The position numbers and the translations under genes are program-made. From positions 2,108,001-2,172,000 of the forward strand of contig NZ_CP047130.1 of assembly GCF_009832865.1 (NCBI RefSeq): a stretch of DNA of 64,000 bases, given 5' to 3'. A model generated the notes under the pieces. It was not told the origin of the DNA. It worked only from the letters and a program-made list of their open reading frames with translations, and searched no databases. How positions within the stretch are numbered: position 1 is the first letter of the stretch; each line of letters begins with the position of its first letter. Shown here one piece after another: positions 21,381 to 45,579 of the stretch. This DNA is from Colwellia sp. 20A7. Lineage in GTDB: Bacteria; Pseudomonadota; Gammaproteobacteria; Enterobacterales; Alteromonadaceae.

Positions 21381-21900
21381 TGAAACCTCTTTTCTATATT
21401 TAAATTAACTTTCTTAAATTAGTTTTATTAAATTCATTAGTCACTCATATTCTTCTCATTGCACACTGTGAGTAATTGACTAAATTTACCTGTCAAAGCT
21501 GTTTCTACCACAATGGGTCACCTTAAATATATCACCTTGAAATTTGCATTATATTTAAGCGCAGGTCCCTATATTTATAGATATTGTCATAATAATTAAT
21601 TCATCATTTAATTTTATATTTTTCGCTATTCTTAGTATGCATAGTTAGTTATTAGAACTATTCATTTGTTTAATTTAATAGCTAGACCTAGCATGGTTAA
21701 TAGTACAAAAATTGTGCTTGAGGAGTCATTAACCTTATGTTGATGATGACAATAAATGGTAACAACAATAAGTACGGCTTAGCCAACAGCTGCTGAAATG
21801 TACTTTATACAATAATTCATGTTCAAACAAAGTATTTGAATGGGATCATATTTAGTGAATACGTATTTTTTAGTATTTATAGCAAAATCGGGGATTCAAG
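21381..21900. promoter_or_regulatory. Intergenic region upstream of the TonB receptor
   Basis: 520 bases without a supported gene. It contains copy A of the shared promoter-like motif (21649-21700) and a long putative 5' leader of about 200 bases before the receptor start. Nothing else recognisable was seen. Confidence 0.5.
21649..21700 (+). promoter_or_regulatory. Island promoter motif, copy A
   Basis: Contains TTATTAGAACT, then ATTCATTTGTTTAAT, then TAGCATGGTTA. Read as a sigma-70 promoter, TTGTTT (21666-21671) is the -35 and TAGCAT (21689-21694) the -10, 17 bases apart. The part just before and overlapping the -35 is the most conserved among the three copies and could be an operator. It stands 201 bases before the TonB receptor start. 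Confidence 0.65.
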
Positions 21901-24367
21901 ATGAGAGATATATCAACAACAAGAACAACAAAATATTTTAAACGTACATTACTTGTTTCAGCAATATTGAGTGCTATCAACCTGAGTGCCGTTAGTGCTC
22001 AGGAAACTAATCAAACTGTTGAGGATGATGATAAAGATGTAGAAAGAATAATGGTCACCGCATCTAAACGACTTAGAGGCTTACAAGAATCTCCTGTAGC
22101 CATAACCGTTGTAAGTGGCCTCGCTGTTGATCAAGCAAAAGTTTTAGATATGAACGATTTACAAACGCTTGTACCAACCTTACGTGTAACCCCTTTACAA
22201 CGTTCTATAAATACTAACTTTGCCATTCGAGGCTTTGGTAATGGTACTAATAATACCGGTATTGAACCATCAGTAGGTATTTTTATTGATGGTGTTTATC
22301 GATCTAGAGCTGCCGCTCAAATTGGTGATTTACCACGATTACAGCAAATAGAAGTACTAAGTGGTCCCCAGAGTACGTTATTTGGAAAGAATGCATCTGC
22401 CGGGGTTATTAATGTTAGAACTATGGAGCCAGCACATACACTTGAAGGCAACATAGAATTAGGTGCCGGTAATTTTAATCAAAAACTTGTTAAAGGTTAT
22501 ATTACTAATGGTATTACGGAAGAGTTAGCTTTCAGTTTATCTGGTGGTTTTCAATAAACGTGATGGTTACACCGATAGTGTCGTTGGGCTAAATAAAATT
22601 AATAATCGTGACCGCTGGAATATTCGTGGCCAAGCATTATATGAACCTACCTCAGATGTAACCTTACGTTTTATTGCTGATTATAGTGAAATAGATGAAG
22701 CTTGTTGTACTGCAGCAGATGTTATTAATGGACCTACAACAGCAGCTGTTCGAGCATTAGGTGGTGTCGTATTAGATGACAATGACCCATTTTCTTATAA
22801 ATCATCACTTAATATAGACCCTGATAATACAGTGCAAGATAGTGGTGTTTCAGTACAACTTGATATTGACTTTGATGGTTTTTCTTTTACCTCAATCAGT
22901 GCACTACGTAGTAATGATTCAGATTTTTTAAATGATGTAGATTATACCTCGCTAGATATATTACGTGAAGGCGGGCACACTAAAATTGATACTATTACCC
23001 AAGAGCTACGTTTGACTTCAACAGGAAAGCAAACTTTAGAATGGATGGTAGGTGCCTATATATTTCAAGAAGAAGTAATCACTGGGGATACGCTATATTA
23101 CGGAGATGATATTCGAACTTTTTTTGATGCTTTGATGACCGCTGGTGGTGCCGATGGTTTATTAGCAGGTGTTGAACAAGTTTACGGGCTTGAACAAGGC
23201 TCGTTTTTCTCAAATGAATCTTTTGTAAACTCTGAATTTACCCAAGATAATGACGCTTATTCATTATTCGCTAATTTTGATTATCATATAACGGAAGATT
23301 TTACGGCTATTTTCGGTGTTAGTTACACGAAAGATGAAAAAACCATAACAGTTGAACAGATCAATAAAGATGTATTGTCTGGCCTTGATATAGACACTGA
23401 ATTAACAGCGTTTGGTGTACCATTATCACTTATTCCAACACTTGCTCCAGCCATCCCTATTTTAAATAGCATTCAATTGTTACCACCCATGCCGAGTTTG
23501 CCTAACGACGTTGAACAGAGTAAATCTGAAGATAGTAAAACAACTTGGTCAATGCGCTTAGCCTATGAGGTAAACGATAACTTTAATGTTTTTGCATCAG
23601 CAGCTACTGGCTTTAAAGCATCATCATGGAATCTCGGACGAAATAGTAATCCGTTCCTTGCAGATCAAGCAGCAATGGAAAGTGCAGGTATTGCACTTGC
23701 TAATCAAACCTACGGTGGTCGTTTTGCTTCTCCTGAAGAAGCAAAAGTTTATGAATTAGGTCTGAAAGCGAGATTTAAAAAAGGGGCATTTAACGTAACC
23801 TTATTCGACCAAACAATTGAAGGATTTCAGTCATCTATATTTATTGGTACTGGCTACGTATTGGCAAATGCCGGTAAACAAAGTACGCAAGGGGTGGAGT
23901 TTGATTCAGTTTACAACCCAACTGAAAACTGGTCGTTCACGTTAGCCGGTACTTTTCTTGATCCCGTTTATGATTCATTTGTTGGAGCAACAGGGATAGA
24001 TGGTCCTATTGATTTATCAGGTGAAAAGCCAGCAGGTATTCATGAACGTAGCATAACAGCCGGCATTACTTACAGTTATGAATTAGAAAATGGTGCGTAT
24101 GGTTATGTTAGAACTGATTACATCTATGAAAGTGAAGTTTATCTTGCTGAAAATGTGCCAGACTCGTTAACGCGAGAAGTTGGTACGTTGAACGCGACAG
24201 CAGGGCTAAGCTTTAATAATGGGCTTAATCTTCAGCTTTGGGTACGTAACCTAAATAATGATGAGTACTTACATTCAGCATTCCCACCACCGATTCAGGC
24301 GGGTAGTTATAATGCTTACCCGAGTCAACCACGTATGTATGGTGCCTCTGTTTCTTATGAATTTTAA
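21901..24367 (+). pseudogene. TonB-dependent outer membrane receptor, split by a frameshift
   Basis: Two overlapping frames together make one receptor of about 820 residues. The first (21901-22557) has a signal peptide (cleaved after about residue 33), a TonB-box-like stretch near VERIMVTASK, and the plug domain with LSGPQSTLFGKNASAGVINV. The second (from about 22556 to 24367) is the beta-barrel ending ASVSYEF, with the usual terminal aromatic residue. Dropping one T at about 22555 joins GGFQ to KRDGYTDS, the typical receptor sequence. Either the gene is inactivated, or this is phase variation or a sequencing error. The order suggests uptake of the island's lipophilic substrate; siderophore-type motifs are not evident. 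Confidence 0.88.
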
Positions 24368-24462
24368 ACAAAAGGATTAATACATAACTCACGTTTAACT
24401 ACCCGATCAAACTCAAATCGATTTTATTTTCGAGCAGAGCTGATTATCAACGTAAATTAAAG

Positions 24463-24496
24463 CAGCCTTGTAATATTTTATTGCAAGGCTGTTTAT
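24463..24496 (+). terminator. Terminator after the TonB receptor
   Basis: Stem CAGCCTTG facing CAAGGCTG with a 13-base A/T loop, followed by TTTAT. It lies about 95 bases downstream of the receptor stop. Confidence 0.55.
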
Positions 24497-24592: not shown

Positions 24593-24704
24593 CATTTAAA
24601 TAAACCTATATAATTCAATGCTTTATATTTGTACCTTCTAAAGTCTCATTACTTAACACTTCTACTTTTACCTAAGAAGCTAAATTCATATTGAGAATAG
24701 TAGG

Positions 24705-24756
24705 TTATAAGAACTATTCATTTGTTTAATCATTCGATTGGGCATAGCATGAGTTA
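24705..24756 (+). promoter_or_regulatory. Island promoter motif, copy B
   Basis: Contains TTATAAGAACT, ATTCATTTGTTTAAT and TAGCATGAGTTA at the same spacing as copy A (29 bases from ATTCA to TAGCAT). The putative -35 TTGTTT and -10 TAGCAT are 17 bases apart. The site lies 130 bases before the first gene of the long plus-strand block. Confidence 0.65.
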
Positions 24757-24885
24757 TTCGCGTTAATCCAATGCTTAATTAACTTGGTTAACAGTTTAAC
24801 TATATTGGTGGTAATAAATAAAATGATAAAAATAATAAGCGTTATCCCAGTGCAACACCCAACCTTGATAATAGCAGCGTAACTT

Positions 24886-25617
24886 ATGTCTGCTATCTAT
24901 CTTATTCGCCATGGGCAGGCTTCATTCGGCAAAGCTGATTATGATCAACTGTCTGATAAAGGTTGTCAGCAATCTGAATTACTTGGTCAATATTGGCAAA
25001 CGCTTAAGACACCGAATAAGCCAGGGAAAATGTTTTCAGGCGCATTATTACGTCATGAACAAACACTTGAAAATTTTTTAAAAGGTTATCAAGGCGAGGT
25101 TTCATCTACAGTACTGCACTCTGGCTTCGATGAATTTAATCATGTTGATATGTTGTCGCGGTACGATGCCCAATGGAAAAATTATGCAAAGATGGCCGCG
25201 TTAGTTAGTAAAAAATCAGAAGCAAATAAAGTGTTCCAAAAAGAATTTTCTTTAGCGCTTAACCGTTGGGTAAGTGGCAAATATGATGGTGATTATATGG
25301 AAAGTTGGTCGCAGTTTAAAAAGCGTTGTATCACTGCATTACAAGACGTGATTAACCAAGAACTCGATGCTAAGAAAGAGTTCAGTAACATAACGCCATC
25401 AAATAACATTTGTATTTTTACTTCTGGCGGCACCATCTCAGTGTTGGTTCAACATATTTTAGGCTTATCTGATCAGAATACGTTATCAATCAATCAACAA
25501 TTGCGAAATACCAGTGTTACAAAGCTACTCTTTACCAAAGGTAGCCTAAGCATTGATTACTTGAATAATTATGGTCATTTAACCCAAGTGGGTCATGACT
25601 GGGAAACCTTTAGATAA
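24886..25617 (+). CDS. Histidine phosphatase family protein
   Basis: Phosphoglycerate-mutase-like phosphatase of 243 residues. The phosphate-accepting histidine is in LIRHGQASFG (His9). The other motif arginine region is GALLRHEQTLENF. The second family histidine is replaced in CIFTSGGTISVLVQH by a Ser-Gly-Gly sequence, a variation seen in a subgroup of the family. Its substrate is unknown; dephosphorylating a CoA-pathway intermediate would fit the island but is only a guess. First gene of the plus-strand block. Confidence 0.85.
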   Translation: MSAIYLIRHGQASFGKADYDQLSDKGCQQSELLGQYWQTLKTPNKPGKMFSGALLRHEQTLENFLKGYQGEVSSTVLHSGFDEFNHVDMLSRYDAQWKNYAKMAALVSKKSEANKVFQKEFSLALNRWVSGKYDGDYMESWSQFKKRCITALQDVINQELDAKKEFSNITPSNNICIFTSGGTISVLVQHILGLSDQNTLSINQQLRNTSVTKLLFTKGSLSIDYLNNYGHLTQVGHDWETFR

Positions 25618-25657
25618 AGGTAGTTAACAAAATAAAATTTTAAAGAGGAATTTAGAT

Positions 25658-26425
25658 ATGAGTACTAATTTGTTCGACTTAACAGGAAAAGTTGCTTTAG
25701 TTACCGGTGCAAGTCGAGGTATTGGCGAGCATATAGCAAAGTTACTCGCAGAAAATGGCGCTCATGTCATTGTATCGAGCCGTAAAATAGACGGTTGCCA
25801 GGCGGTCGTTGACCAAATCATTGCTGCCGGTGGAAGTGCCCAAGCAATTGCTTGCCATATTGGTGAAATGGAACAAATAGAAAGTATATTTGAGCAAATA
25901 TCAGCCGAGCACGGAAAACTAGATATATTAGTAAATAATGCCGCTGCAAACCCTTATTTTGGCCATGTATTAGATACAGACCTGTTAGCTTTCCAAAAAA
26001 CGGTTGACGTTAATATCCGTGGCTACTTTTTTATGTCTACTATTGGCGCTAAATTGATGAAAGAAAATGGTGGCGGGGCGATTGTTAATGTTGCCTCAAT
26101 CAACGGAATAATTCCTGGCGACTATCAAGGTATCTACTCTATTACCAAGGCAGCGGTTATTTCTATGACAAAAACGTTCGCTAAGGAATGTGCACAATTC
26201 AATATTCGTGTTAATGCCTTATTACCTGGTGGTACGGATACTAAATTCGCTTCAACCTTAGTAAACAATCCAAAAATATTAGAACAACTGATGCATCACG
26301 TGCCAATGAAACGCGTTGCACAGCCAGAAGAAATGGCCGGTACGGTACTGTATTTAGTTTCTAATGCCTCTAGTTACACCACCGGTACGGCAATAAATGT
26401 TGATGGCGGTTATTTGATTGGATAA
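25658..26425 (+). CDS. Short-chain dehydrogenase/reductase
   Basis: Classical SDR of 255 residues. NAD(P)-binding TGASRGIGE is at about residues 17-25, NNAA at about 92-95, the catalytic tyrosine and lysine are in YSITKAA, and the C-terminal INVDGGY is typical. AGGAA precedes the ATG. It probably acts on a hydroxyacyl or keto intermediate in the island pathway. It is 40 bases from the phosphatase gene and 120 from the reductase that follows. Confidence 0.9.
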   Translation: MSTNLFDLTGKVALVTGASRGIGEHIAKLLAENGAHVIVSSRKIDGCQAVVDQIIAAGGSAQAIACHIGEMEQIESIFEQISAEHGKLDILVNNAAANPYFGHVLDTDLLAFQKTVDVNIRGYFFMSTIGAKLMKENGGGAIVNVASINGIIPGDYQGIYSITKAAVISMTKTFAKECAQFNIRVNALLPGGTDTKFASTLVNNPKILEQLMHHVPMKRVAQPEEMAGTVLYLVSNASSYTTGTAINVDGGYLIG

Positions 26426-26545
26426 ATAGAAGCACATAAATAAGCCGTACGTTTTGTCTATCTGTGTACGGTGTAAATTTAAACAATATCAAGTTAGCAA
26501 CCGTGTTAACAATAAATAATTAGCAAATGAATGTTAGGAAATAAA

Positions 26546-27661
26546 ATGAGCAACAACAACGCAGCAAAACTATTTAAGTCATTTTCATCAGGAACCTTAA
26601 ACTTAAAAAATCGCACCGTGATGGCGCCCATGACACGTACGTTTTCACCTAACTATATTCCAACGGATGACGTAGCAAAATATTATCGCCGCAGAGCAGA
26701 AGGCAATGTTGGTTTAATTATTACCGAGGGAACGTTTATTTCTCATAAAGCCGCAAACGGCTATGAACGTGTGCCAGCAATTTTTGGTGATGAGGCTTTA
26801 GCGGGTTGGAAACACGTGGTTGACGAAGTTCATGCTGCAGGCGGAAAAATAGCACCACAACTTTGGCATGTAGGTTCGGTACGTAAAGAAGGTATTGGTC
26901 CAGATAAAGAAGTTCCGGGCTATAGCCCATCAGGTTTATATAAACCGGGCGCACCAAACGGTGTTGCTATGAGTAAAGCAGATATCGATGATGTTGTTGC
27001 TTCATTTGCCCAAGCCGCTGCAGACGCGAAAGCTATTGGTTTCGATGCTATCGAAGTACATGGTGCACACGGTTACTTGGTTGATCAATTCTTTTGGGAA
27101 GGCACTAACCAACGTAACGATGAATACGGTGGTTCATTAGAGAACAGAACTCGTTTTGGCGTTGAAATAGTCAAGGCTATTCGTGAAAAAGTAGGTAAAG
27201 ACTTTCCAATTATCTTTAGATTTTCACAATGGAAGCAACAAGATTACAACGCCAAACTTTGTCAAACGCCTGAAGAGTTAGCAACATTTTTAACCTTATT
27301 AAGTGATGCTGGCGTTGATATTTTCCACGCAAGTACTCGACGTTTTTGGCTACCTGAATTTGAAGGCTCAGATCTTAACCTTGCCGGTTGGACAAAAAAA
27401 TTAATCAATAAACCTGTCATTACCGTGGGCAGTGTTGGTTTAGACAGTGACTTTACCGGTGAAGGCAGTGTTGATCTTGCTGGCACGTCAAACCCAACGG
27501 GAATCGAAGGGTTATTAACGCGTTTAAATAATGATGAGTTTGATTTAGTCGCTATTGGTCGTGCCTTGTTGGTTGATCCTGAGTGGGTAAATAAAATTGA
27601 ACATAATAAAGAAGACGAAATCGCACCGTTTAATAAAGAAGCATTAATGAAATTAAGTTAG
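26546..27661 (+). CDS. Old-yellow-enzyme family NADH:flavin oxidoreductase
   Basis: FMN-dependent ene-reductase of 371 residues. Start ATG 26546 is preferred to the in-frame ATG 26531 because TAGGAA is then 6-11 bases upstream. The TIM barrel begins FSSGTLNLKNRTVMAPMTR, the substrate-binding HGAHGYLVDQFFW is followed by NQRNDEYGGSLENR, and the phosphate-binding end LVAIGRALLVDPEW is intact. It is the single-domain form; the Fe-S/FAD extension of 2,4-dienoyl-CoA reductase is absent. It probably reduces an activated C=C bond in the substrate chain. Confidence 0.92.
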   Translation: MSNNNAAKLFKSFSSGTLNLKNRTVMAPMTRTFSPNYIPTDDVAKYYRRRAEGNVGLIITEGTFISHKAANGYERVPAIFGDEALAGWKHVVDEVHAAGGKIAPQLWHVGSVRKEGIGPDKEVPGYSPSGLYKPGAPNGVAMSKADIDDVVASFAQAAADAKAIGFDAIEVHGAHGYLVDQFFWEGTNQRNDEYGGSLENRTRFGVEIVKAIREKVGKDFPIIFRFSQWKQQDYNAKLCQTPEELATFLTLLSDAGVDIFHASTRRFWLPEFEGSDLNLAGWTKKLINKPVITVGSVGLDSDFTGEGSVDLAGTSNPTGIEGLLTRLNNDEFDLVAIGRALLVDPEWVNKIEHNKEDEIAPFNKEALMKLS

Positions 27662-27725
27662 TACCTTAATTTGATATTAGTTAATCACTTACATAACTTT
27701 ATAGTAAAAATAATAAGGATCTCCC

Positions 27726-28934
27726 ATGGATTTTGAATACAGCGACAAAGTTAAAGAATTAATGGCACGTGTTAGCGCATTTATGGACGAGTACGTTTAT
27801 CCCGCTGAAGCACAAATGCATGAGCAAGTGGCGCAGGATCAATGGACAACACCTGCTTTAATGGAAGAACTGAAAGCCAAAGCGAAAGCACAGGGGTTAT
27901 GGAATTTATTTTTACCGGTTAGCTATGGAAAATACAGTGCAGGACTTACCAATTTAGAATATGCACCACTTGCTGAAATTATGGGAAAAGTGTTTTGGGC
28001 TCCTGAAGTGTTTAATTGTGCAGCGCCTGATACAGGTAATATGGAAGTACTCGCTAAATATGGTAATGAAGTACAGAAGAAAAAATGGTTAGAGCCGCTA
28101 CTTGAAGGAAAAATTCGTTCGGCTTTTGCTATGACCGAGCCAGAAGTTGCATCAAGTGATGCGACGAATATAGAGCTAAGTATTGTACGCGACGGTGATG
28201 AATACGTTATCAATGGTCGAAAATTTTACATCAGTGGCGCTTGTCGAAAACAATGTGAAATTATGATTGTGATGGGTAAAACTGACCCAGACAATACTGA
28301 CCGTTACATCCAACAATCTCAAGTTCTTGTACCAATGAAAACAGCAGGAGTCACTATGGTGCGTCCAATGAAAGTTTTTGGTTATAACGATGCACCAGAA
28401 GGACATGCAGAAATCACCTTTGACAATGTTCGTGTACCTGTTGAAAACATCATTGTTGGAGAAGGTAAAGGCTTTGAAATTGCACAAGGTAGATTAGGCC
28501 CAGGTCGCATTCATCATTGCATGCGATCAATTGGTGTAGCACAACGAGCCCTAGATTTAATGTGCCAGCGCGTTAACGATCGTATTGTCTTTGGTCGTCC
28601 AATGATCAAACAACAATCTATTCGAGAAGATATTGCCATTTCTGCCTGCCAAATTGAACAAGCCAGACTGATGACGTTAAAAGCGGCTCAAAAGATGGAT
28701 CTTGAAGGCAATAAAGCGGCCAAAGATATTATCGCAATGATAAAAATTGTTGCTCCGAGTATGTCACTTGATGTACTTGACCGTGCTATTCAATGCCATG
28801 GCGCTGTGGGTGTTAGTCAAGATACCTTTTTAGCTCATGCTTTTGCCGGCCAAAGAACGTTGCGCTTAGCTGATGGTCCTGATCAAGTACACATGATGCA
28901 ACTTGGACGAGATATAGTTAAAAAATCAATATAG
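27726..28934 (+). CDS. Acyl-CoA dehydrogenase, ACAD10/11-like
   Basis: FAD flavoprotein of 402 residues with the N-terminal helical domain, the FAD-binding [17 protein letters not shown] and the C-terminal domain ending [16 protein letters not shown]. Family resemblance is to the dehydrogenase domain of ACAD10 and ACAD11 and to LvaC. The next gene encodes the matching APH-type kinase as a separate protein. In the human enzymes and in bacterial levulinate catabolism, such a pair converts 4-hydroxyacyl-CoA through a 4-phospho intermediate to an enoyl-CoA. A simple dehydrogenase role remains possible. Confidence 0.9.
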
Positions 28935-28988
28935 TACTTAACGCTATTAATAAGCAGCGGTAATTATTACCGTTACTTATAGATTTAA

Positions 28989-29017
28989 TATTAATGCGTT
29001 AACTATTAATGCGTTAA
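28989..29017. repeat. Tandem 14-base repeat before the kinase gene
   Basis: TATTAATGCGTTAA occurs at 28989-29002 and 29004-29017, one base apart, 22 bases before the start of the kinase gene. Possibly a small regulator site, or a slippage duplication. Confidence 0.6.
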
Positions 29018-29039
29018 ATAAATGAAAGAGATAAAAATA

Positions 29040-30071
29040 ATGTCAGTAACCGTTTCTTTTGATATAGAAAAATTGACTCGCTATTTGGAATCTAATGTTG
29101 AGGGGTTTGTTGGTCCTATCACATTAGAGAAGTTTCCGGGTGGTCAGTCAAATCCAACGTTTAAAGTAAATGCTAAGTCTGGTCTTTATGTTCTGCGTAG
29201 TCAGCCGCAAGGAAATTTATTGAAGTCTGCACATGCTGTAGATCGAGAGTTTCAGGTACTTGACGCATTAAAAGATACCGATGTACCGGTAGCTAAGGTT
29301 TATCACCTTTGTATCGATACTAGCATTATAGGCTCGATGTTCTATTTAATGGAATTTTGTGATGGCACTGTTTATTGGAGTGCTTCACTACCTGAAATAT
29401 CAACTAACGCTTATCGAAGTCAGCTATACGACACAATGAATAGGGCTTTGGTTGCATTACATAGTGTTGATCTTGATGCTGTTAATTTACGTGATTATGG
29501 CAAAGCAGGTAATTACTTCGAACGCCAGTTTTCTCGATGGACATCACAATATCGTGCTACTGAATTACAACAAATCGATGCGATGGACAACTTAATATTA
29601 TGGCTTGAAACACATCTACCGATAGATGATGGTCGAGTTTGTTTAGTTCATGGTGATTTTCGTTTAGACAACATTATGTTTAAAAAGGATAAAGCTGAAG
29701 TGATCGCGGTCCTTGATTGGGAGTTATCGACTCTTGGGCACCCATTTTCTGATTTAGCTTATCAATGCATGCAATTGCGTATGCCACAAGGTATGGGAAC
29801 TATTGATGGTTTACAAGGAATAGACAGAGAGAGTCTGGGTATTCCTACGGAAGAAGAATATGTTGCCACTTACTGTCAGCGTATGGGTATTGATCATATT
29901 GAAAATTGGACATTTTATCTTGCTTTTAGCTTCTTTAAATTAGCCGCTATTGCGCAAGGTGTTGCAAAACGAGCCTCACAAGGTAATGCAACTAATGAAC
30001 AAGCGAATAAAGTTGGTGCTTTTGTTGAACCGCTGGCACAAATGGCTTTAAGTATCATTAGTGATGAATAA
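29040..30071 (+). CDS. APH-family phosphotransferase (ACAD10/11 kinase-domain homologue)
   Basis: Aminoglycoside-phosphotransferase-fold kinase of 343 residues. ATG 29040 is chosen, with GAG 10 bases upstream; ATG 29022 is also possible. The catalytic loop is LVHGDFRLDNIMF and the metal-binding segment is VLDWELSTLGHPFSDLAYQ. The N-terminal FPGGQSNPTFKV is typical of the ACAD10/11 kinase domain rather than of antibiotic kinases. Sits directly behind the ACAD10/11-like dehydrogenase, so it most likely phosphorylates a hydroxyacyl-CoA and not an antibiotic. Confidence 0.9.
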   Translation: MSVTVSFDIEKLTRYLESNVEGFVGPITLEKFPGGQSNPTFKVNAKSGLYVLRSQPQGNLLKSAHAVDREFQVLDALKDTDVPVAKVYHLCIDTSIIGSMFYLMEFCDGTVYWSASLPEISTNAYRSQLYDTMNRALVALHSVDLDAVNLRDYGKAGNYFERQFSRWTSQYRATELQQIDAMDNLILWLETHLPIDDGRVCLVHGDFRLDNIMFKKDKAEVIAVLDWELSTLGHPFSDLAYQCMQLRMPQGMGTIDGLQGIDRESLGIPTEEEYVATYCQRMGIDHIENWTFYLAFSFFKLAAIAQGVAKRASQGNATNEQANKVGAFVEPLAQMALSIISDE

Positions 30072-30137
30072 AAACATAACAAACTGTTACCTAAACACTA
30101 AATTATTAAACAATATTTGTAACGTAAGGAATTTACC

Positions 30138-30899
30138 ATGGATCCACTATTAGATTTTACAGGAAAAGTCGCCGTTATTACAGGTGCAGCTCAAGGGTTT
30201 GGTCAGCTGCTTGCTGAAGAATTAGCTAAGCGTGGCGCAAAGCTAGTGATTAGTGATATTAACGAAGCAGGTGTAATGAAAGTTGCTGACGGCATTAAAG
30301 CAACAGGTGCAGACGTGATTGCCATGGCGTGTAACGTTGCAAAAAATGATGATTGTAAGGCAATGGTAGATGCCGCCATTGAGCACTTTGGCAAAGTTGA
30401 TATTGGGGTGAATAATGCCGGTATTGCCCACGAATTTATGCCACTACATGACATAGATGAAGCCATCATGGACTCTCAATTTGCGGTTAATGTAAAAGGT
30501 GTTCAATTTGGTATGCGTCATCAAATACAACAAATGCTTAAACAAGGCGAAGGCGCGATTTTAAATGTCAGCTCTATGGCAGGATTAGGTGGCGCAGCAA
30601 GAGGTGGTGCTTATGCAATGGCTAAGCATGCGGTTATTGGTTTAACAAAGACTGGCGCTGTTGAATACGGTCGTAACAATATTCGTATTAATGCTATTTG
30701 TCCGTTTTTTACCTTAACGCCAATGGTGACCAACTTTGCTGACGATGAACAGCAAAAACGAATGAGCAGAGGGGCACCTATGCATCGACTAGGCGAGCCT
30801 AAAGAGATTGTTGCCATGATGTTGATGATGCTATCACCAGCAAATACTTATATGACAGGGCAATGCATTGCAATAGATGGTGGTGTATCTGCACAGTAA
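30138..30899 (+). CDS. Short-chain dehydrogenase/reductase
   Basis: SDR of 253 residues with TGAAQGFGQ cofactor loop, NNAG, SSMAG, and the catalytic YAMAKHA pair. It ends IAIDGGVSAQ. It is unlike the SDR at 25658-26425 in the cofactor loop. Placed after the dehydrogenase/kinase pair, it is comparable in position and kind to LvaD, the SDR of levulinate catabolism, but the substrate cannot be read from sequence. Confidence 0.9.
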   Translation: MDPLLDFTGKVAVITGAAQGFGQLLAEELAKRGAKLVISDINEAGVMKVADGIKATGADVIAMACNVAKNDDCKAMVDAAIEHFGKVDIGVNNAGIAHEFMPLHDIDEAIMDSQFAVNVKGVQFGMRHQIQQMLKQGEGAILNVSSMAGLGGAARGGAYAMAKHAVIGLTKTGAVEYGRNNIRINAICPFFTLTPMVTNFADDEQQKRMSRGAPMHRLGEPKEIVAMMLMMLSPANTYMTGQCIAIDGGVSAQ

Positions 30900-31001
30900 A
30901 CGGTAACGCAATACGCTTTTGTAGGGCAGTGTATTAGTCGTAAATCTTTGTTTTTATGGCTAGTAATATCGATAAGTAAAAAAAGATAATAAGAGAAAAG
31001 T

Positions 31002-34409: not shown

Positions 34410-34419
34410 GGGAGTCATC

Positions 34420-37372: not shown

Positions 37373-37546
37373 GTCACAAGTAATAGCACTTTCATTAAGT
37401 TTATTAACATGACTATTTGCCAATATAGGCTTAATAGAAAGTAACAACAGCGTTATCTGGTGAGTGCTAATTCATTAGATAACGCTGTATCACAATGCTG
37501 TACCTCAACGCCGCACATCAGGGCAGCACCAAAAAAGAGAAACATC

Positions 37547-38545
37547 ATGACTACTTATACCGCAATTAATTTAATCGCTCGTCCAACTGGAGGGCCAATA
37601 GGTCCAGAATTATTTGACGTTGTGCAACTTGATATACCAACGGTTGGTAACGGGCAATTTTTAGTAAAACAAAATCACATGTCGTTAGACCCTGCAATGT
37701 TTGGTTGGATGAGCCCAGATACCGAAAGCTATATTCCACCCGTGGCATTAGGTGATGTTATGCGCAGCTCTGGTATTGGTGAAATAGTAGAAAGTAATCA
37801 TCCTGATTTTAACGTAGGTGATCGTGTTATGGGCATGATGGGTTGGAAAGAGTACCATTTAAGTGACGGCACAGGGTTAAATAAAGTGTCTGCGCCATTA
37901 CCAGACGAAGCTATTTTATCTGTTTTTGCTTTACCTGGTTTAACGGCTACACAAGGTTTATATAGTATTGGTAAGCCACAAAAAGGTGAAACCTTAGTGG
38001 TGTCTGGTGCCGCAGGCTCAGTTGGCTCTATTGTTGGTCAGCTAGCTAAAGCGGATGGATTAACGGTTATTGGTGTTGTTGGTAGTGATGAGAAAGCCGA
38101 TTGGATTATTAACGAATTAGGTTTTGATGGCGCGGTTAACTACAAATCAACAGATTTAGCTGAAGCGCTAGCCAAACTAACGCCACATGGTATCGATGTA
38201 TACTTTGAGAATACTGGTGGGCCAATACAACATCACGTATTTGACCGCATGAACGCTCATGGCCGTATTGCTGTTTGTGGTTTGATTGCTGATTATCCAA
38301 AGCAAACACCAGATTTAGGTCCAAACTGGATACCGATCATTAAAAAGCGTTTAACCGTTCAAGGTTTTACCATGCCAGATCATTTCGGTGAGATCCCAGC
38401 ATTATTAGAGAAACTTACACCGTATGTAATGGCCGGAAAAATCAAACATCGTGCGCATGTTCTTGATGGTTTACCGTCAGCAATGACAGGGTTGAACTTA
38501 TTTTTCACTGGAAAAAATAAAGGTAAGTTGATTGTTAAAATTTAA
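37547..38545 (+). CDS. MDR-family NADP-dependent oxidoreductase (CurA-like)
   Basis: Zinc-free medium-chain reductase of 332 residues. The open frame extends up to 37460, but ATG 37547 gives the family start and AAAGAG lies just before it. Typical segments: QNHMSLDPAMFGWM, LPGLTATQGLY, the cofactor loop SGAAGSVGSIVGQLAK, and YFENTGGPIQHHVFDRM. The family (CurA, prostaglandin and leukotriene B4 reductases) reduces enones, so this is a second enoyl reductase besides the old-yellow-enzyme-type protein. Confidence 0.9.
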   Translation: MTTYTAINLIARPTGGPIGPELFDVVQLDIPTVGNGQFLVKQNHMSLDPAMFGWMSPDTESYIPPVALGDVMRSSGIGEIVESNHPDFNVGDRVMGMMGWKEYHLSDGTGLNKVSAPLPDEAILSVFALPGLTATQGLYSIGKPQKGETLVVSGAAGSVGSIVGQLAKADGLTVIGVVGSDEKADWIINELGFDGAVNYKSTDLAEALAKLTPHGIDVYFENTGGPIQHHVFDRMNAHGRIAVCGLIADYPKQTPDLGPNWIPIIKKRLTVQGFTMPDHFGEIPALLEKLTPYVMAGKIKHRAHVLDGLPSAMTGLNLFFTGKNKGKLIVKI

Positions 38546-38572
38546 GTTAACTCATTTTTATTTAACTTATTT

Positions 38573-38638
38573 TAACTGAACTGAACTGAACTGAATTGAA
38601 CTTAATTTGATTTGAACTTAATTTGATTTAACTTAGCT
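38573..38638. repeat. Short tandem repeats between the MDR and dehalogenase genes
   Basis: Units of CTGAA repeat about five times at 38575-38600, then ACTTAATTTGATTTGA-like units repeat twice. No coding potential seen; likely slippage. Confidence 0.6.
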
Positions 38639-38678
38639 TCATCAAATAATACTAATTATTATAATAATAAGGACGCAT

Positions 38679-39587
38679 ATGGACTTTTTAAGAACTGACG
38701 ATAGTTGCTTTGCAACATTAGAAGGTTATAAATTTTCACCCAATTATTTACTCGTTGATGATACTGAAGGTGGGCAACTTAGAGTCCACTATGTTGATGA
38801 AGGCCCTAAAGATGGCCAGCCAATATTGCTATTACACGGTGAGCCGTCATGGAGCTATTTATACCGTAAAATGATACCACCACTGGTTGCAGCCGGTTAT
38901 CGTGTTATTGCACCAGACTTAGTTGGTTTCGGTCGCTCTGATAAACCAACAAAACGCACCGATTATACTTACCAACGTCATGTTGATTGGATGCACAGCG
39001 TGCTTGATCAATTAGAATTAACAAGTATTACGTTATTTTGCCAAGATTGGGGTGGGTTAATCGGTTTACGTTTAGTGGCAGAGCAAAGTGATCGCTTTGC
39101 CCGTGTTGTTGCAGCAAATACCATGCTACCCACAGGAGAACATTCTCCGGGCGAAGCTTTTATGAAATGGCAGAAGAACTCGCAAGAGATGCCTGTGTTT
39201 CCAGCGGGTAAAATTATCAATGGTGGTACAAATTCAGACTTAACGCCTGAAATCCTTGCTGGCTACAATGCTCCTTACCCTGAAGAAAGTTATAAAGAAG
39301 GGGCTCGCCAGTTTCCATTATTGGTGCCAACTAGCCTTGATGACCCAGCATCAACAAGTAACATTGCTGCTTGGCAGGTATTGACTCAGTGGAATAAGCC
39401 ATTTTTAACGGCATTTAGTGATAACGATCCTATTACTTGTGGCGCAGATAAAATATTACAAAAACTTATCCCAGGTACAAAAGGGCAGGCGCATACAACC
39501 ATTGAAAATGGCGGGCATTTCTTACAAGAAGATCAAGGTGATAAAATAGCGCAAGTGATTATTGATTTCATCAAAGCCAATGACTAA
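38679..39587 (+). CDS. Haloalkane dehalogenase, HLD-I type
   Basis: Alpha/beta hydrolase of 302 residues that hydrolyses carbon-halogen bonds to alcohols. Family hallmarks: the oxyanion motif HGEPSWSYLYRKM at 53-65; the nucleophile Asp123 with halide-binding Trp124 in FCQDWGG; the late Asp in FSDNDPITCG; and the final histidine in NGGHFLQED. The sequence strongly recalls the cold-active DpcA/DhlA-type dehalogenases of marine bacteria. It is the last gene of the plus-strand block. The natural substrate is unknown; some HLDs have mild esterase side activity. Confidence 0.93.
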   Translation: MDFLRTDDSCFATLEGYKFSPNYLLVDDTEGGQLRVHYVDEGPKDGQPILLLHGEPSWSYLYRKMIPPLVAAGYRVIAPDLVGFGRSDKPTKRTDYTYQRHVDWMHSVLDQLELTSITLFCQDWGGLIGLRLVAEQSDRFARVVAANTMLPTGEHSPGEAFMKWQKNSQEMPVFPAGKIINGGTNSDLTPEILAGYNAPYPEESYKEGARQFPLLVPTSLDDPASTSNIAAWQVLTQWNKPFLTAFSDNDPITCGADKILQKLIPGTKGQAHTTIENGGHFLQEDQGDKIAQVIIDFIKAND

Positions 39588-39742: not shown

Positions 39743-40435
39743 CTATAGCTTTAACACTATGGTTGAATCAAGTTCAATGGCTGCATCTAATGCCGCTAAC
39801 ATATCTTTTCTTTCTTTTAATTTAGTACCATGATGCGCTGTCATATTTAACGTCAGCATTTGATTAGCGATAATCTTTGCCGTGGCCATTAACTGCTCTG
39901 GCTCTACTACTGTATCTAAAAAACCGGCAGGAATAGCCGCTTCTGGTGAGAATAATTCTGCATTAATCACTGAACGTGTTAAATAGTTAATTGGAATACG
40001 ATTACGCGCGACTTCGATACCCGCTTGATGCATCGTCATACCAATGGCAACTTCATTTAAGCCTATTTTAAATGCACCTAAACTGCCAACACGGTGATCG
40101 CAACTCAATAACAAAAAGGCACCTTTCGCGATTGCATGACCAGTACATGCGCCGATAATAGGGAATGGAAATGACAACATCCGACGTGATAATGTTGAAC
40201 CCGCAGTAACTAATGCTACCGCTGACTCTGAACTTTCTTTCATGGTTTTTAAGTCAAAACCACCTGAGAATATTCCCGGTTGGCCAGTTAAAATAACGAC
40301 AGCACCTGCCGATTCTGCTTGATCTAAAGCGTCATTTATTTCCACAATCACTTGAGGAGAAATAGCGTTAACCTTGCCATTTTTTAAGGTAATTGTTGCA
40401 ATTTGTTCAGTAATATCTAAATCGATTAATTCCAC
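39743..40435 (-). CDS. Enoyl-CoA hydratase/isomerase family protein
   Basis: Crotonase fold, 230 residues. Oxyanion-hole segment GQPGIFSGGFDLKTM and IGACTGHAIAKGAFLLLSCDHRVGS are clear, followed by FKIGLNEVAIGMT, whose Glu corresponds to a catalytic acid position. It is shorter than the typical 260 residues. Last gene of the minus-strand block; may serve S-type hydration, or isomerise an unsaturated intermediate. Confidence 0.9.
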   Translation of the reverse strand: MELIDLDITEQIATITLKNGKVNAISPQVIVEINDALDQAESAGAVVILTGQPGIFSGGFDLKTMKESSESAVALVTAGSTLSRRMLSFPFPIIGACTGHAIAKGAFLLLSCDHRVGSLGAFKIGLNEVAIGMTMHQAGIEVARNRIPINYLTRSVINAELFSPEAAIPAGFLDTVVEPEQLMATAKIIANQMLTLNMTAHHGTKLKERKDMLAALDAAIELDSTIVLKL

Positions 40436-40464
40436 GGTATTTCCTCGTGCTAAATAATTATAAT

Positions 40465-41073
40465 TTAACCAAAACTCGCTGCTTTTTGATAGGCAGGTCT
40501 TTGCTTCATATTTACAAGATAAGCTTTGATATGTGTTCTGTTTTCTAACAAGCTAAGGTTATCAGCAATATCTAATATAATTGTCATCATAATATCTGCT
40601 GCGCTAAAAGCACCGTCAGCAAAATAGGTACGTTGGCTTAACGTATCGTCAATATATGAAAAGTCTAGCTGTAGTTCTTTCGCAATATAACCATCAAGCG
40701 GTTTGTTACCGTCACGGGTTTCCATCGACATTAATAAGCTACAGATTATTGGTAAACTTAATGACCCTTCAGCAAAATGAAGCCATTCTAGATATTGATA
40801 GTATTGAGCGCTATCAATCTTAGGTCTTAAAGTATCATTGCTTGCTTGGTTAAGAATATATTCCATTATTGCGCCGGATTCACATAAGGTAACATCGTTA
40901 TCAACAATAATAGGAGCCTTAGCTAATGGGTGAATTTTCTTTAAACTTTCAGGCGCTAAACCTGTTTGCGAGTCTCGTTCGTGATTAACTATGTTATAGG
41001 GCATATTCAGCTCTTCTAGTAACCAAATAACGCGAGTTGAACGTGACTTATTTAAATGGTGAATCGTTATCAT
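40465..41073 (-). CDS. Glutathione S-transferase family protein
   Basis: 202 residues: thioredoxin-fold N-terminal part (MITIHHLNKSRSTRVIWLLEELNMPYN, followed by the cis-proline region KAPIIVDNDVTLCESGAIMEYIL) and an all-helical C-terminal part. The serine near residue 10 in the NKSRS motif is a likely glutathione-contacting residue. In this island it may detoxify electrophilic intermediates or act as an isomerase or dehalogenating transferase, but no specific function can be stated. Confidence 0.88.
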   Translation of the reverse strand: MITIHHLNKSRSTRVIWLLEELNMPYNIVNHERDSQTGLAPESLKKIHPLAKAPIIVDNDVTLCESGAIMEYILNQASNDTLRPKIDSAQYYQYLEWLHFAEGSLSLPIICSLLMSMETRDGNKPLDGYIAKELQLDFSYIDDTLSQRTYFADGAFSAADIMMTIILDIADNLSLLENRTHIKAYLVNMKQRPAYQKAASFG

Positions 41074-41210
41074 AATAAGGTAAGGCCTTAAATTTTGTAC
41101 AGCTTCAACATTAGAGTTGAAGCTGTAAATGGAGTAATAGAATAACAGTATAACTTAAAAAAAACTGCTTATAACTTACCGTAACAACAAGAAACTTATT
41201 GGAATTGGTA

Positions 41211-42155
41211 TTACGCAAGCTCATCAATAACATCAGCTTGATTTTTAGCTTTTTGTTGTTGTTTTAGTGCTAGCTCTACATTAACTTTCGAGCGAAAGAA
41301 TCGAACAAGTACACCTGCGGTAAACAGCATAATTAAAGTGTATATTGCTGGCGTAAATGACATTTGATAATTCGCTAATAAAGTGAGTGCCATAAACATT
41401 GATAAAGTACTATTTTGTAACCCTACCTCAATTGTAATAGACGTAGTTTGTGCGGTATTTAAGCCAAACCAACGACTCGAATAATAACCTAATGCCATGG
41501 TAGAAATATTAAGAATAAGTGACACAGGGCCGGTTGCTATAATGGCAGAAACAATAATGTCTTGCTGAATATACGTTAAAAACATGACCAATAAGGTTAA
41601 AAATAACACACCAAATCGTGATACGTGTATTTGTGAGCTATCGGCAAATTTAGGGGCAAACGCTTTAATTAACATACCAATAATAATAGGCACTATCGTT
41701 AACTTCATTAAACTTATCATGGTTGCCATCATAGGTAATTGAAATTCATTGCCTTCACCCATAAAATGCTGCAAAGATAGGTTTAACACAACAGGAATAG
41801 TAAAAACGGTGATCAAACTTGCTACCGCTGTCATGGTAACTGACAGGGCAACATCGCCTTTCGCCAAATGGGTAAACATGTTTGAGGTGGTTCCGCCTGG
41901 ACATAGCACGAGTAGCATTACACCAACGGCATATTCAGGCTCTAGTGGCATAATATTAGCTAATCCAAAACCAATCAAAGGTAAAAGTATTAGCTGATTG
42001 AGTAAACCTACGGACACTGCTTTTGGGTATTTTAATACGCGCTTAAAGTCGTTAGGAACAAGCGATAATCCCATCCCCATCATAATGAGAAATATGCAAA
42101 TAGGAACGACTTTCGTATTGACCATTGTTATTAACTCTGTGCCTTCCATATTCAT
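41211..42155 (-). CDS. Bile acid:sodium symporter (BASS) family transporter
   Basis: Inner-membrane protein of 314 residues with eight to ten hydrophobic helices. Signature segments are LVLCPGGTTSNMFTHLAKGDVALSVTMTAVASL (first sodium site region) and ITIEVGLQNSTLSMF (second crossing motif). BASS proteins move organic anions such as bile acids, pantoate or keto acids with sodium. With the TonB receptor on the other side of the island, it may bring a carboxylate across the inner membrane. The C-terminal tail is basic and lysine/glutamine-rich. Confidence 0.92.
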   Translation of the reverse strand: MNMEGTELITMVNTKVVPICIFLIMMGMGLSLVPNDFKRVLKYPKAVSVGLLNQLILLPLIGFGLANIMPLEPEYAVGVMLLVLCPGGTTSNMFTHLAKGDVALSVTMTAVASLITVFTIPVVLNLSLQHFMGEGNEFQLPMMATMISLMKLTIVPIIIGMLIKAFAPKFADSSQIHVSRFGVLFLTLLVMFLTYIQQDIIVSAIIATGPVSLILNISTMALGYYSSRWFGLNTAQTTSITIEVGLQNSTLSMFMALTLLANYQMSFTPAIYTLIMLFTAGVLVRFFRSKVNVELALKQQQKAKNQADVIDELA

Positions 42156-42199
42156 ATCTCCAATTATTAAATAGTTTATGTCTGGTGGGGTTAGTTAAC

Positions 42200-43327
42200 T
42201 CATAAAGAGATTATTTGCCCCGTATTAGCATCTGACGTTCCTGATAACACGCGTTGATAAATAGGGTTGATTTTTTCACTGTCTGTTGTGTGCTCTATCG
42301 TGATGGTGCTTTGGCAAAATTGAATATAATTGAGTAATGACAAGCCTATTTTTTGCATTACTGTATTAGTGCCCCAGTCATCTATCCGCTTTTTAAGCTG
42401 TGTCGGGGCAAAAAAGAAGGTTGGCGTAACGCCAGGTAAAGTTGATATTTTACTTAGTTCATCTGGTAATAAATCATCATGATGGGTTACGCCTATACGG
42501 CATGAATAACGTAATTGATCGCCAAAATGATAATAAATTTTTGACAAAACACTTTGGCTACCAGCCATATCAACCACAACTGATAATTGTCTCGCGTCTA
42601 AGGTGGCAATTTCGTCATAGCTAATGACTTCATCATAGCAACCTAAAGAGGCGACAAAATCACGATGAGTTGCAGAAGTAATACCAATACTCGGGACTGT
42701 TCCTCGTTGTTTAATCGCAAAGGCAAGGGCTATGCTGGTTTTACTTGAGGCACTGGTAATTAAGTATTGCGAAGCACCAAAATACTGATTGTCATCGATA
42801 AAATCATCAACCAGCCAAGAGGTAGTAAATAAACCACGAACAAGTATGTCGAAATCTTCATTTTCTACTGAATAAAAAGGGTTAGCACTTACAAGTTCAA
42901 ATACTGAATATAAAGGAGCAAGTCCTTTTCTATAGGGGCTTACATCTGAAAAACCATTTTTATTAACGTTACCTGCTAGAATTTTTACGTGGCTTGCCAT
43001 CGGCATGAAGCCCCAAACGCGTTGGCCAACGCTAATGTGCTCATTATTTGATGCAACAACGTTAGCAAATCCCATCACTGGTAATCGACCCCATTGTTTT
43101 TCACTTGTTTGTTCTGTAGGAAAAAACCGCCAATAACCTAGGCTATCACCCGCTACTCCATAACTGATGTTATTGGCGGTAAGGGCAAATTTATCGACTT
43201 TAAGCACGACTTCATTTTCACTCAGTGGCATTGCAATTGTTGATGTTGTTAAGCGTGTTGTTTGTAAATTAGCTTTTTCAACTTCAAATGTTTGAACGTT
43301 AATATCCTGCATTTTAGTACCTTGCAT
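42200..43327 (-). CDS. DUF2855 family protein, MDR-like fold
   Basis: 375 residues. N-terminal KFALTANNISYGVAGDSLGYWRFFPT is typical of DUF2855. A Rossmann-like region is visible as YLITSASSKTSIALAFAIKQRGT followed by GITSATHRDFVASLGCYDEVISYDEI, which resembles the cofactor domain of medium-chain reductases. AAGGA lies upstream of the first ATG. Function is not established; a reductase acting on the pathway substrate fits the context. Confidence 0.85.
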   Translation of the reverse strand: MQGTKMQDINVQTFEVEKANLQTTRLTTSTIAMPLSENEVVLKVDKFALTANNISYGVAGDSLGYWRFFPTEQTSEKQWGRLPVMGFANVVASNNEHISVGQRVWGFMPMASHVKILAGNVNKNGFSDVSPYRKGLAPLYSVFELVSANPFYSVENEDFDILVRGLFTTSWLVDDFIDDNQYFGASQYLITSASSKTSIALAFAIKQRGTVPSIGITSATHRDFVASLGCYDEVISYDEIATLDARQLSVVVDMAGSQSVLSKIYYHFGDQLRYSCRIGVTHHDDLLPDELSKISTLPGVTPTFFFAPTQLKKRIDDWGTNTVMQKIGLSLLNYIQFCQSTITIEHTTDSEKINPIYQRVLSGTSDANTGQIISL

Positions 43328-43433
43328 TTTAATTTCCTTAACTTTGGCTTGTCCTATTTACCTATTTACCTATTTACTATGCTTGTAGCGTTGGTAAGTT
43401 TTAGCTAGCGACAAGGGGATGTCTACGGCAATA

Positions 43434-44369
43434 TTATTCGTTAATGAAGTGGGCTATTGCGTTGTTAATTTCGGGTGATTTTTCATGCGTAAGCCAGTGC
43501 GTAGCATCACAAAAACGTTCAATACGGCAATCGGGTACATATTCTTCAATACCACTAAGGTTCTCATTGACAAAAGCTTGATCATTTTCACCCCAGAGAA
43601 TAAGTGTTGGTACATTGATTCTTATTTTTGGAATTCTCATTTTGCTTAGATCAGAGACTTGTGCGGGATTATCCTTACTTTCTTTTTCATGGTGCGAATT
43701 AGCATTAGCAGCAAGTTGTGGCATCGCACGATAATATTGCAACATACCGTTAATGGCATCAGGTTGTTGCCATGCTTGCTGGTAATGGCTAATTTCTTCG
43801 TCGGTAAAAATAGCTGAAGTTGACGCCACCAATATCTTTTCACGTAAGAATTGATAATTATTATCAGCTAATAAATGTTCAGCTCCCGCGCTGATCAATT
43901 GATGAATGTAGGCACTTTTTTCTCGTTGAATTGGATTATTGATCATTTCACGGGTAAAAGTACTTGGGTGCGCAGCATTTAAAATAATCAGTTTTTCAAT
44001 ATATTGAGGGTAGAAAGCGGCTAATGGCCAAGCTATTGCGCCGCCCCAATCATGAGCGACTAAGTAGACTTTTTTACTTGGACTGACAGCACGGATAAAC
44101 TTGGCAAAAAATTCAATTAAATTAGGTATTTCGTAAAACGAAACATCTTCAGGTTTACCACTCAAGTTATAGCCCGGTAAATCAGGCGCAATAACATGAT
44201 GATCAGTACAAAAGTAGTCGAGTTGGGCTTGCCACGTTTGCCAATATTCAGGAAAGCCATGTAAAAATAGTAAAGTAGAGCCTTCTAAAGCTTTATTTTT
44301 AGTAGGACCCGCTGACATGTAATGAATGTTAACGTCATCAATAAGTGCGAAGTTACTTTGAAGTTTCAT
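43434..44369 (-). CDS. Alpha/beta hydrolase, epoxide-hydrolase-like
   Basis: 311 residues. Oxyanion motif LHGFPEYW at 36-43, nucleophile Asp107 in AHDWGGAIAW, acid region LILWGENDQAFV, and final histidine in CDATHWLTHEK. The nucleophile is aspartate, as in epoxide hydrolases and dehalogenases. The HGFPE sequence favours epoxide hydrolase. It shares the fold but not close sequence with the dehalogenase at 38679-39587. Five bases separate it from the nitroreductase gene, so they are cotranscribed. Confidence 0.9.
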   Translation of the reverse strand: MKLQSNFALIDDVNIHYMSAGPTKNKALEGSTLLFLHGFPEYWQTWQAQLDYFCTDHHVIAPDLPGYNLSGKPEDVSFYEIPNLIEFFAKFIRAVSPSKKVYLVAHDWGGAIAWPLAAFYPQYIEKLIILNAAHPSTFTREMINNPIQREKSAYIHQLISAGAEHLLADNNYQFLREKILVASTSAIFTDEEISHYQQAWQQPDAINGMLQYYRAMPQLAANANSHHEKESKDNPAQVSDLSKMRIPKIRINVPTLILWGENDQAFVNENLSGIEEYVPDCRIERFCDATHWLTHEKSPEINNAIAHFINE

Positions 44370-44374
44370 GGTAA

Positions 44375-45037
44375 TTAATTAAAAAAAGAAACAGCATTAT
44401 TAAGTGATTCACGCTCGGTACGTGTGTTATTTACCGCAGCACTTTCGTCAGCGTAACCAAATGACATACCAAACAAAATACCGCGTTGTTCAGGTAACTT
44501 TAGTGCTTTTTTAACCGGATCTGGAAATTGCCCTAAGGCACCTTGCATACAACAAGATATCCCGTTTTCTTCGAGTAGTAATGCCAAAGTTTGTGCATAA
44601 ATGCCAAGATCAACCGCGCCCATAATGTCTAAATATTTGTCCATGGTAAAAAAGGCGGCATGAGGTGCATCAAAAAATTGCCAGTTGCGTAACATCGACA
44701 TTTGGCGTCCTTTCTTATCTTCACGACTAACACCTATTGAATTGTATAACGCATTAGCAGAGCCAAACTGACGTTCTCGATGAACGCCTTCATATTTTGC
44801 TACCCAATTAAAATCTGGGTTAGGCGCTGCACCTTTCATCACTGCAGAAACTAAATCAACTTTTAATTGGTCTTTCGTATTGCCAGAAACAACACAGGTT
44901 TGCCAAGGTTGAACATTACAATTTGAAGATGATTGTTGGGCTTGGCTAAAAATTGATTCTAATAAATCCTGTGGTACAGGTTTGTCTAAATAAGCGCGAA
45001 CAGAATAGCGTTTTTCTAATAAAGCATTTAATGACAT
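44375..45037 (-). CDS. Nitroreductase family protein
   Basis: FMN-dependent oxidoreductase of 220 residues, starting LLEKRYSVRAYLDKPVP, the usual RRS-type FMN-binding start, with SSNCNVQPWQTCVVSG and the C-terminal part GILFGMSFGYADESAAVNNTRTER. It is the first gene of the minus-strand block. Typical partners are NAD(P)H and quinones, nitro or enone compounds; physiological substrate unknown. Confidence 0.9.
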   Translation of the reverse strand: MSLNALLEKRYSVRAYLDKPVPQDLLESIFSQAQQSSSNCNVQPWQTCVVSGNTKDQLKVDLVSAVMKGAAPNPDFNWVAKYEGVHRERQFGSANALYNSIGVSREDKKGRQMSMLRNWQFFDAPHAAFFTMDKYLDIMGAVDLGIYAQTLALLLEENGISCCMQGALGQFPDPVKKALKLPEQRGILFGMSFGYADESAAVNNTRTERESLNNAVSFFN

Positions 45038-45579
45038 AAGAAAACCTTAATAATGTGTAAATTAATCACCGTTACTTTTATATGTTAAAAATAGTATTAA
45101 CAGTAACTTAAAGATAAATGTATGTAATTTAGTATCACTCATGCTAAAGCCGATATTTTTATAATGCCAATGAATAATTATCATTGTGATGTATTCATAA
45201 AACATATAGTTATCAAAATAAGCCGGATGAAAAAATAAATATCCCTTGTAGTAACGGAATAACAAGGAGGTTACCGAGAATTAGTCAAAATAATAGCGAT
45301 GCTTAATTTGCTTGAGTATACGAATAATTAATAGTTTCTTATAAGTAATATTCATTTGTTTTATATATGCAGGGTAAATTAGCATGGTTAGTAGAGTAAA
45401 GGTAACCGTGAACGTTCAGTAATCACCTTGCTACCTAAGTGCATTAACTAAGTTTGTCTGCATTGCTAGCACAAGTGGGTAAGCTAAATAGCGAGTTAAC
45501 TAATGACTGAGCATTTGAATTGGTATTGAAAATAACACTTATAAAATTTTTTGATTAAAAAATAATACGGAGAGAAAAA
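45038..45579. promoter_or_regulatory. Divergent intergenic region between nitroreductase and acyl-CoA dehydrogenase
   Basis: 542 bases with no supported gene; a 67-residue minus-strand ORF in it has no recognisable features. It contains copy C of the shared motif at 45339-45391 facing the dehydrogenase gene, then a leader of about 190 bases. Confidence 0.5.
45339..45391 (+). promoter_or_regulatory. Island promoter motif, copy C
   Basis: TTATAAGTAAT, ATTCATTTGTTTTAT and TAGCATGGTTA occur in the same order as in copies A and B; the last element is one base further away. Putative -35 TTGTTT and -10 TAGCAT are 18 bases apart. It is 190 bases before the acyl-CoA dehydrogenase start. Confidence 0.65.

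Follow-up and report, generated by a model that had tools for sequence, protein, structure and literature searches.

We propose that a repeated promoter/operator element in a catabolic island of Colwellia sp. 20A7 is the operator-promoter of a single LysR-type transcriptional regulator (LTTR), and that an orphan LTTR gene lying outside the island controls the island's four gene blocks together with its own gene; we put the probability of this reading at roughly 0.8. The island lies in a 64,000-nucleotide stretch of contig NZ_CP047130.1 (positions 2,108,001 to 2,172,000; hereafter the window), in which a preliminary description made from the letters alone had noticed three copies of the element. 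To this we add a fourth copy, a site probably used for autoregulation, and a specific gene as the candidate regulator. The preliminary description had missed this fourth copy, as well as the upstream dyad of the element, the family and identity of the regulator, and the adjacency of regulator and island in most of the relatives examined. The element is very probably where this one LTTR lands to turn on an island that degrades a fat-like compound.

Copies and anatomy of the element

The composite TTATNAGNANTATTCATTTGTTT is present without mismatch at 21649, 24705, and 45339 of the window, each time on the plus strand. At up to three mismatches, 0.04 matches were expected in the window, and none of 100 shuffles reached three. 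Across the 4.58-Mb genome, the window's three copies are the only exact matches; no other place has one mismatch, two places have two, and three have three. The genome-wide excess of matches that the preliminary description had named as speaking against it was not found. The five imperfect matches were set aside: four lie within open reading frames (ORFs) or across ORF starts, and the fifth (locus L038, three mismatches) is intergenic, adjoins a TonB-receptor ORF, and is oriented away from it. The bare 13-mer at one mismatch gave 48 matches versus 43 for the reversed control and is thus uninformative on its own; its fourth exact match (201542) falls inside a gene on the opposite strand.

When 61 relatives were searched, the two-mismatch pattern matched in 26 genomes versus 10 for the reversed pattern. 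Its isolated single matches are probably due to chance, and a sequence-only profile (R1), built from 24 sites of nine genomes, was therefore used in its place. With 150 of 7047 first-look candidates scored in the own genome, R1 returned the three known sites and a fourth; the next match reached an E value of only 0.02, and none of the five imperfect matches was recovered. Orthologous islands carrying copies of the motif were found in relatives. This conservation, together with the uniqueness of the composite, bears out the earlier view that one promoter/operator is common to the gene blocks of the island.

The fourth site faces six reverse genes, nitroreductase first, and together with sites 1 to 3 (Table 1) it means that each of the island's four gene blocks carries the element. 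Six loci of relatives (L285–L290) were fetched because R1 showed close back-to-back site pairs there. Four of the six, all within L286–L290, have the pair between the 598-amino-acid (aa) acyl-CoA dehydrogenase and the nitroreductase; in another of L286–L290 the gene across the pair from the 598-aa acyl-CoA dehydrogenase encodes a receptor, with the nitroreductase behind it, and in L285 (genome G006) the pair lies between a receptor and the nitroreductase.

Alignment of the 24 sites showed that the conserved element starts about 22 bases 5′ of TTAT, and so is longer on the 5′ side, with the approximate consensus CTATTC-N7-GAATAGT-N3-TTATNAGAACTATTCATTTGTTTAATT-N14-TAGCAT. One reading of it is a pair of dyads, ATTC-N7-GAAT and ATTC-N7-TAAT, with 32 bp from start to start; T-N11-A, the LTTR box, is present in each. 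With TAGCAT at −12 to −7, the dyads of sites 1 and 2 are centered at −66 and −34 relative to the predicted starts, and those of site 3, with its 18-bp spacer, one base further upstream. If TAGCAT is the −10 box, these would be the usual positions of LTTR recognition and activation. The copies precede the TonB receptor, the 13-gene block, and the acyl-CoA dehydrogenase as had been described, and the spacers between TTGTTT and TAGCAT (17, 17, and 18 bases) were confirmed on measurement; both a weak sigma-70-like promoter and a conserved regulator-type block over and 5′ of the −35 box are supported. A longer palindrome in copy 2, GAATAGT-N11-ACTATTC, was dropped as the unit; it is poorly kept in copies 1 and 3, whereas T-N11-A holds in both registers.

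In a larger collection of 93 distinct sites (matrix score ≥35), the −35-side dyad is more conserved than the −65-side dyad: ATTC opens the second dyad in 90 sites but the first in only 58. A 17-bp spacer to the −10 box is seen in 80 of the 93, and the other 13 do not fit that spacing. The matrix, trained on 16 of these sites, itself chose them, so that the conservation figures are biased upward.

The orphan LTTR and its co-occurrence with the element

A Pfam scan of 22 ORFs of at least 110 aa between 21901 and 47376 found no transcription-factor family (four ORFs at 19056–21380 lie outside the scan), in line with the earlier claim that the regulator is encoded outside the island. Relatives have a gene of about 300 aa next to the motif site and divergent to it. 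Six such neighbors were scanned: four (in G009, G041, G021, and G012) carry the Pfam domains HTH_1 and LysR_substrate, and the first-picked neighbors in G022 and G008 are other proteins; the LTTR orthologues of G006 and G008 were identified through homology. The orthologue in the own genome (G000:C1:1869667–1870560, minus strand) has the same two domains and is 69% identical to the G041 protein. It lies about 259 kb from site 1, and the surrounding genes have no relatives in the island; the LTTR of G014 has the same solitary setting. The orphan is under purifying selection; it and its G014 orthologue differ at 53 synonymous versus 3 nonsynonymous codons.

The strict two-dyad pattern ATTC-N7-GAAT-N17-ATTC-N7-TAAT has two exact matches in the genome, against an expectation of about 0.016: site 2 and a place 62 bp upstream of the orphan LTTR. 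Its sole one-mismatch match is site 1. Read by eye, the orphan's promoter keeps both dyads but only decayed versions of TTTGTTT and TAGCAT, and contains a TTGACT-N17-TACATT pair directed toward the LTTR. The matching AGTCAA was found in named relatives at 24 of 36 LTTR-adjacent sites versus none of 26 other sites, the window's three included. The simplest history would be that the LTTR, with a copy of the operator, parted from the island in the lineage of the own genome and G014.

Co-occurrence was counted in a family sample of 196 genomes and a genus sample of 39 (eight in both as far as the listings show; union 227). In the family sample, to which only the own genome among the nine source genomes of R1 belongs, the motif was called by R1 at E values up to 1e-4; profile searches over more than 40 genomes ran with stricter filters. 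The line for LTTR orthologues, 404 bits, was set after a gap in scores (404.6 to 271.3) had been seen. The motif was found in 34 family genomes and the LTTR (≥404 bits) in 33, the next LTTR match scoring 271 bits: the motif is present in 33/33 genomes with the LTTR versus 1/163 without it (G132), and in 0/49 that hold only lower-scoring LTTRs (≤271 bits). The genus sample gave the motif in nine genomes, eight of them with the LTTR (8/8 versus 1/31, the one being G022), and the union 40/40 versus 2/187 (Fisher p 1.6e-42, kinship ignored). In 38 of the 40 genomes a divergent site lies 10 to 162 bp from the LTTR, the exceptions being the own genome and G014.

The pairing extends beyond the family. 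In the best 80 of at least 500 confirmed loci, with LTTR relatives 45 to 99% identical, the core ATTCATT[TGA]G lies within 260 bp upstream of the LTTR in 69, compared with 0/80 on the wrong strand and 0/80 inside the gene. As to the remaining 11, the LTTR of L196 is detached, a site lies about 700 and 400 bp away in L197 and L201, respectively, L198, L205, L262, L268, and L273 hold near-matches to the core, and no core-like site was seen upstream in L246, L271, or L275. T-N11-A was counted only in promoters with the core, identical ones collapsed, and is present in both registers in all 66 (35/35 in L196–L238; 31/31 in L239–L275, mostly Undibacterium, Noviherbaspirillum, Massilia, and kin). 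The LTTR-motif pairing thus reaches the Burkholderiales. Selection for the core fixed the T of the second dyad but not its A, nor either letter of the first dyad. One-base register shifts scored 0, and some larger shifts scored high because the core is fixed (second dyad 0.80 at +4 and 0.94 at +5; first dyad 0.68 at −4).

Proposed mechanism and its alternatives

In the mechanism we propose, an LTTR tetramer would occupy the two dyads, ATTC-N7-GAAT near −66 and ATTC-N7-TAAT near −34. The second overlaps the −35 box, and the bound LTTR would help RNA polymerase at the weak promoter TTGTTT-17-TAGCAT. The orphan LTTR would act in trans on the four blocks and probably regulate itself through the operator at its own promoter; the inducer may be a pathway compound, such as a 4-hydroxy acid or the corresponding CoA ester.

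Several observations weigh against this proposal. Site 4 is weak (E 5.2e-6), and the strict two-dyad pattern misses sites 3 and 4, each of which departs from it at three positions; at two mismatches that pattern shows no excess, with 15 matches versus 17 for the reversed control. Two genomes have the motif without the LTTR: G022 holds six sites, its best LTTR relative scoring 215 bits, and G132 holds one weak site (E 2.8e-5), which is either a relic or the product of a broken assembly. Finally, the own genome holds a paralogous LTTR 39% identical to the orphan. As further observations on these genomes, the G022 assembly (C42, C12; L077, L078, L291) is 99% complete and has its 215-bit relative near the island, and the G132 site (L292:1965, on the 4-kb contig C1173) keeps GCATAGTCAAG as LTTR-adjacent sites do.

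The same orphan LTTR might bind these sites and chiefly repress the island until an inducer relieves it. We consider this unlikely. In its favor, a protein bound at the second dyad, over the −35 box, could block polymerase, own-gene repression is common to most LTTRs (PMC4834489), and BsrA works at genes that are downregulated (PMC8407307). Against it, the placement of the dyads near −66 and −34, together with the weak −10 hexamer TAGCAT, is the one usual for activators (PMC5603801). We give a much smaller chance to control of the island by another regulator, such as the paralogous LTTR (G000:C1:1646183–1647037), with the orphan not being cognate. That gene lies divergent to one for an acyl-CoA dehydrogenase that shares 77% identity with the island's, a weak composite-like stretch (matrix score 11) lies between the two, and the G022 sites are kept without an orthologue of the orphan, but the motif is absent from all 49 family genomes with only lower-scoring LTTRs, and the orphan is under purifying selection and retains its two-dyad operator. 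The paralogue's own locus (L124:8616–11065; G000:C1:1636000–1655999) is perhaps a sister regulon. Scarcely credible is a shared core promoter only, for instance of an alternative sigma factor, without a dedicated regulator: the most conserved stretch does take in the −35 box, and TAGCAT and the 17-bp spacing are well kept, but the two T-N11-A dyads are spaced by 32 bp and fall beyond the promoter boxes or straddle them, motif presence tracks one LTTR, and L239–L275 retain the −35-side core with a different −10 hexamer.

Known systems, pathway, and gene blocks

Judged by sequence, the anatomy would be that of an LTTR-activated catabolic regulon (PMC5603801, PMC4834489, PMC4730206). It resembles the PnpR/PnpM, ThnR, BenM, and DntR regulons, in which recognition and activation binding sites (RBS and ABS) are distinguished, in having T-N11-A near −65, a second contact near −35, and, in most relatives examined, a divergent regulator gene; like ThnR, one regulator would serve several promoters (PMC5603801, PMC4834489, PMC4730206). 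It differs from them in that the −35 site is strongly conserved, above the −65 site, and in that the regulator gene is detached in the own genome and G014. According to the introduction of PMC5603801, no conserved ABS motif had been identified. The best-scoring NCBIfam LTTR model is that of BsrA (PA2121), at 220.9 bits, far below the 480-bit cut-off of the equivalog NF050187; BsrA binds 765 regions with little conservation past T-N11-A (PMC8407307).

Within their partial coverage, literature searches found no paper on this regulator or motif; one for the motif string brought up five papers, all unrelated. By sequence, the closest solved structures over the full length are PDB 1uth and 5ae5 (E 3.8e-54), of the DntR/NtdR type, which we take to be DntR; the neighbors here are acyl-CoA enzymes rather than nitroarene or naphthalene dioxygenases. 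A broader proposal, which we hold tentatively and at somewhat less than even odds, is that this LTTR is of a kind not described before. Its operator would be bipartite, with an activation site (TATTCATTTGnT-nAATT) fixed from marine Gammaproteobacteria to Burkholderiales, it would be dedicated to ACAD11-type (4-hydroxy-acid) catabolism, and in this Colwellia lineage it would have moved out of the operon, retaining its own operator and controlling its regulon in trans. If true, this would be an exception to the rule that activation sites have no conserved motif. On the main reading, the three look-alike promoters become part of a full testable regulon: a single regulator gene, its four promoters, and probably a site for autoregulation. 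The LTTR and operator could serve as a reporter for finding the substrate of a marine catabolic island, and the conserved activation site over the −35 box would be a clean system for studying how an LTTR tetramer engages polymerase, since many genomes offer both half-operators for alignment.

The regulated core resembles a split ACAD11 and hence suggests 4-hydroxy-acid catabolism. The two halves of ACAD11 have their counterparts in the island's kinase and acyl-CoA dehydrogenase (E at most 1.5e-81 and 1.7e-128, respectively), which share a gene block with an AMP ligase and short-chain dehydrogenases/reductases (SDRs). ACAD11 phosphorylates 4-hydroxyacyl-CoA, after which the phosphate is eliminated (PMC12440821; PMC11342911), and a 4-hydroxy or related acid is thus a plausible substrate class. 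The separate kinase and dehydrogenase also recall the lva operon and the ACAD10-ACAD11 4-hydroxy-acid pathway (PMC12440821), a likeness drawn from the published description of that pathway; the set here is larger and includes beta-oxidation enzymes of its own as well as a TonB receptor. In L196–L238, 41 of 43 loci have at least one of the histidine phosphatase, first SDR, 402-aa acyl-CoA dehydrogenase, and kinase on the strand opposite the LTTR; the exceptions are the detached L196 and L207, which ends at the LTTR. In GC-rich loci, gene neighborhoods are incomplete because the ORF picker loses genes there.

Table 1. Element copies and gene blocks of the island (window positions)
Feature	Position	Strand	Details
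Site 1, putative operator-promoter before TonB receptor	21622..21708	+	Profile E 1.7e-18
Site 1 parts	Dyads 21628-21642, 21660-21674; −35 TTGTTT 21666-21671; −10 TAGCAT 21689-21694	+	
Site 2, putative operator-promoter before 13-gene block	24682..24765	+	Profile E 1.2e-17; exact two-dyad match
Site 2 parts	Dyads 24684-24698, 24716-24730; −10 TAGCAT 24745-24750	+	
Site 3, putative operator-promoter before 598-aa acyl-CoA dehydrogenase	45312..45399	+	Profile E 3.2e-12
Site 3 parts	Dyads 45318-45332, 45350-45364; −10 TAGCAT 45380-45385	+	Spacer 18
Site 4, diverged copy facing reverse block	45131..45212	-	Profile E 5.2e-6; back-to-back site pairs in relatives
Site 4 parts	Dyads 45207-45193, 45175-45161; −10 TAGCAT 45146-45141	-	
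TonB-dependent receptor, two overlapping frames	21901..24367	+	Plug 21901-22557, barrel 22544-24367
13 codirectional genes	24886..39587	+	Order in the next two rows
13-gene block, genes 1-7			Histidine phosphatase, SDR, old-yellow-enzyme-type, acyl-CoA dehydrogenase (402 aa), APH-type kinase, SDR, acyl-CoA dehydrogenase (601 aa)
13-gene block, genes 8-13			MaoC, SDR, thiolase, AMP ligase, ADH_N_2 oxidoreductase, alpha/beta hydrolase
Six reverse genes	39743..45037	-	Transcription order: nitroreductase, alpha/beta hydrolase, DUF2855, SBF transporter, GST, enoyl-CoA hydratase
Acyl-CoA dehydrogenase, 598 aa	45580..47376	+	

The TonB receptor of G014 is one open frame of 821 aa, and the split in the window's receptor is either a frameshift or a sequence error. 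The G006 island (L075:1746–9087) has five extras not seen in the window's island: a molybdopterin oxidoreductase, a P460-like cytochrome (just under the Pfam cut-off), a DUF1295 protein, a beta-propeller, and a patatin-like protein. Between the third SDR and the thiolase of the 13-gene block, a 19-base unit (AGTAATTCATTAAAGTAAT) occurs three times at 13-base spacing (34364–34408).

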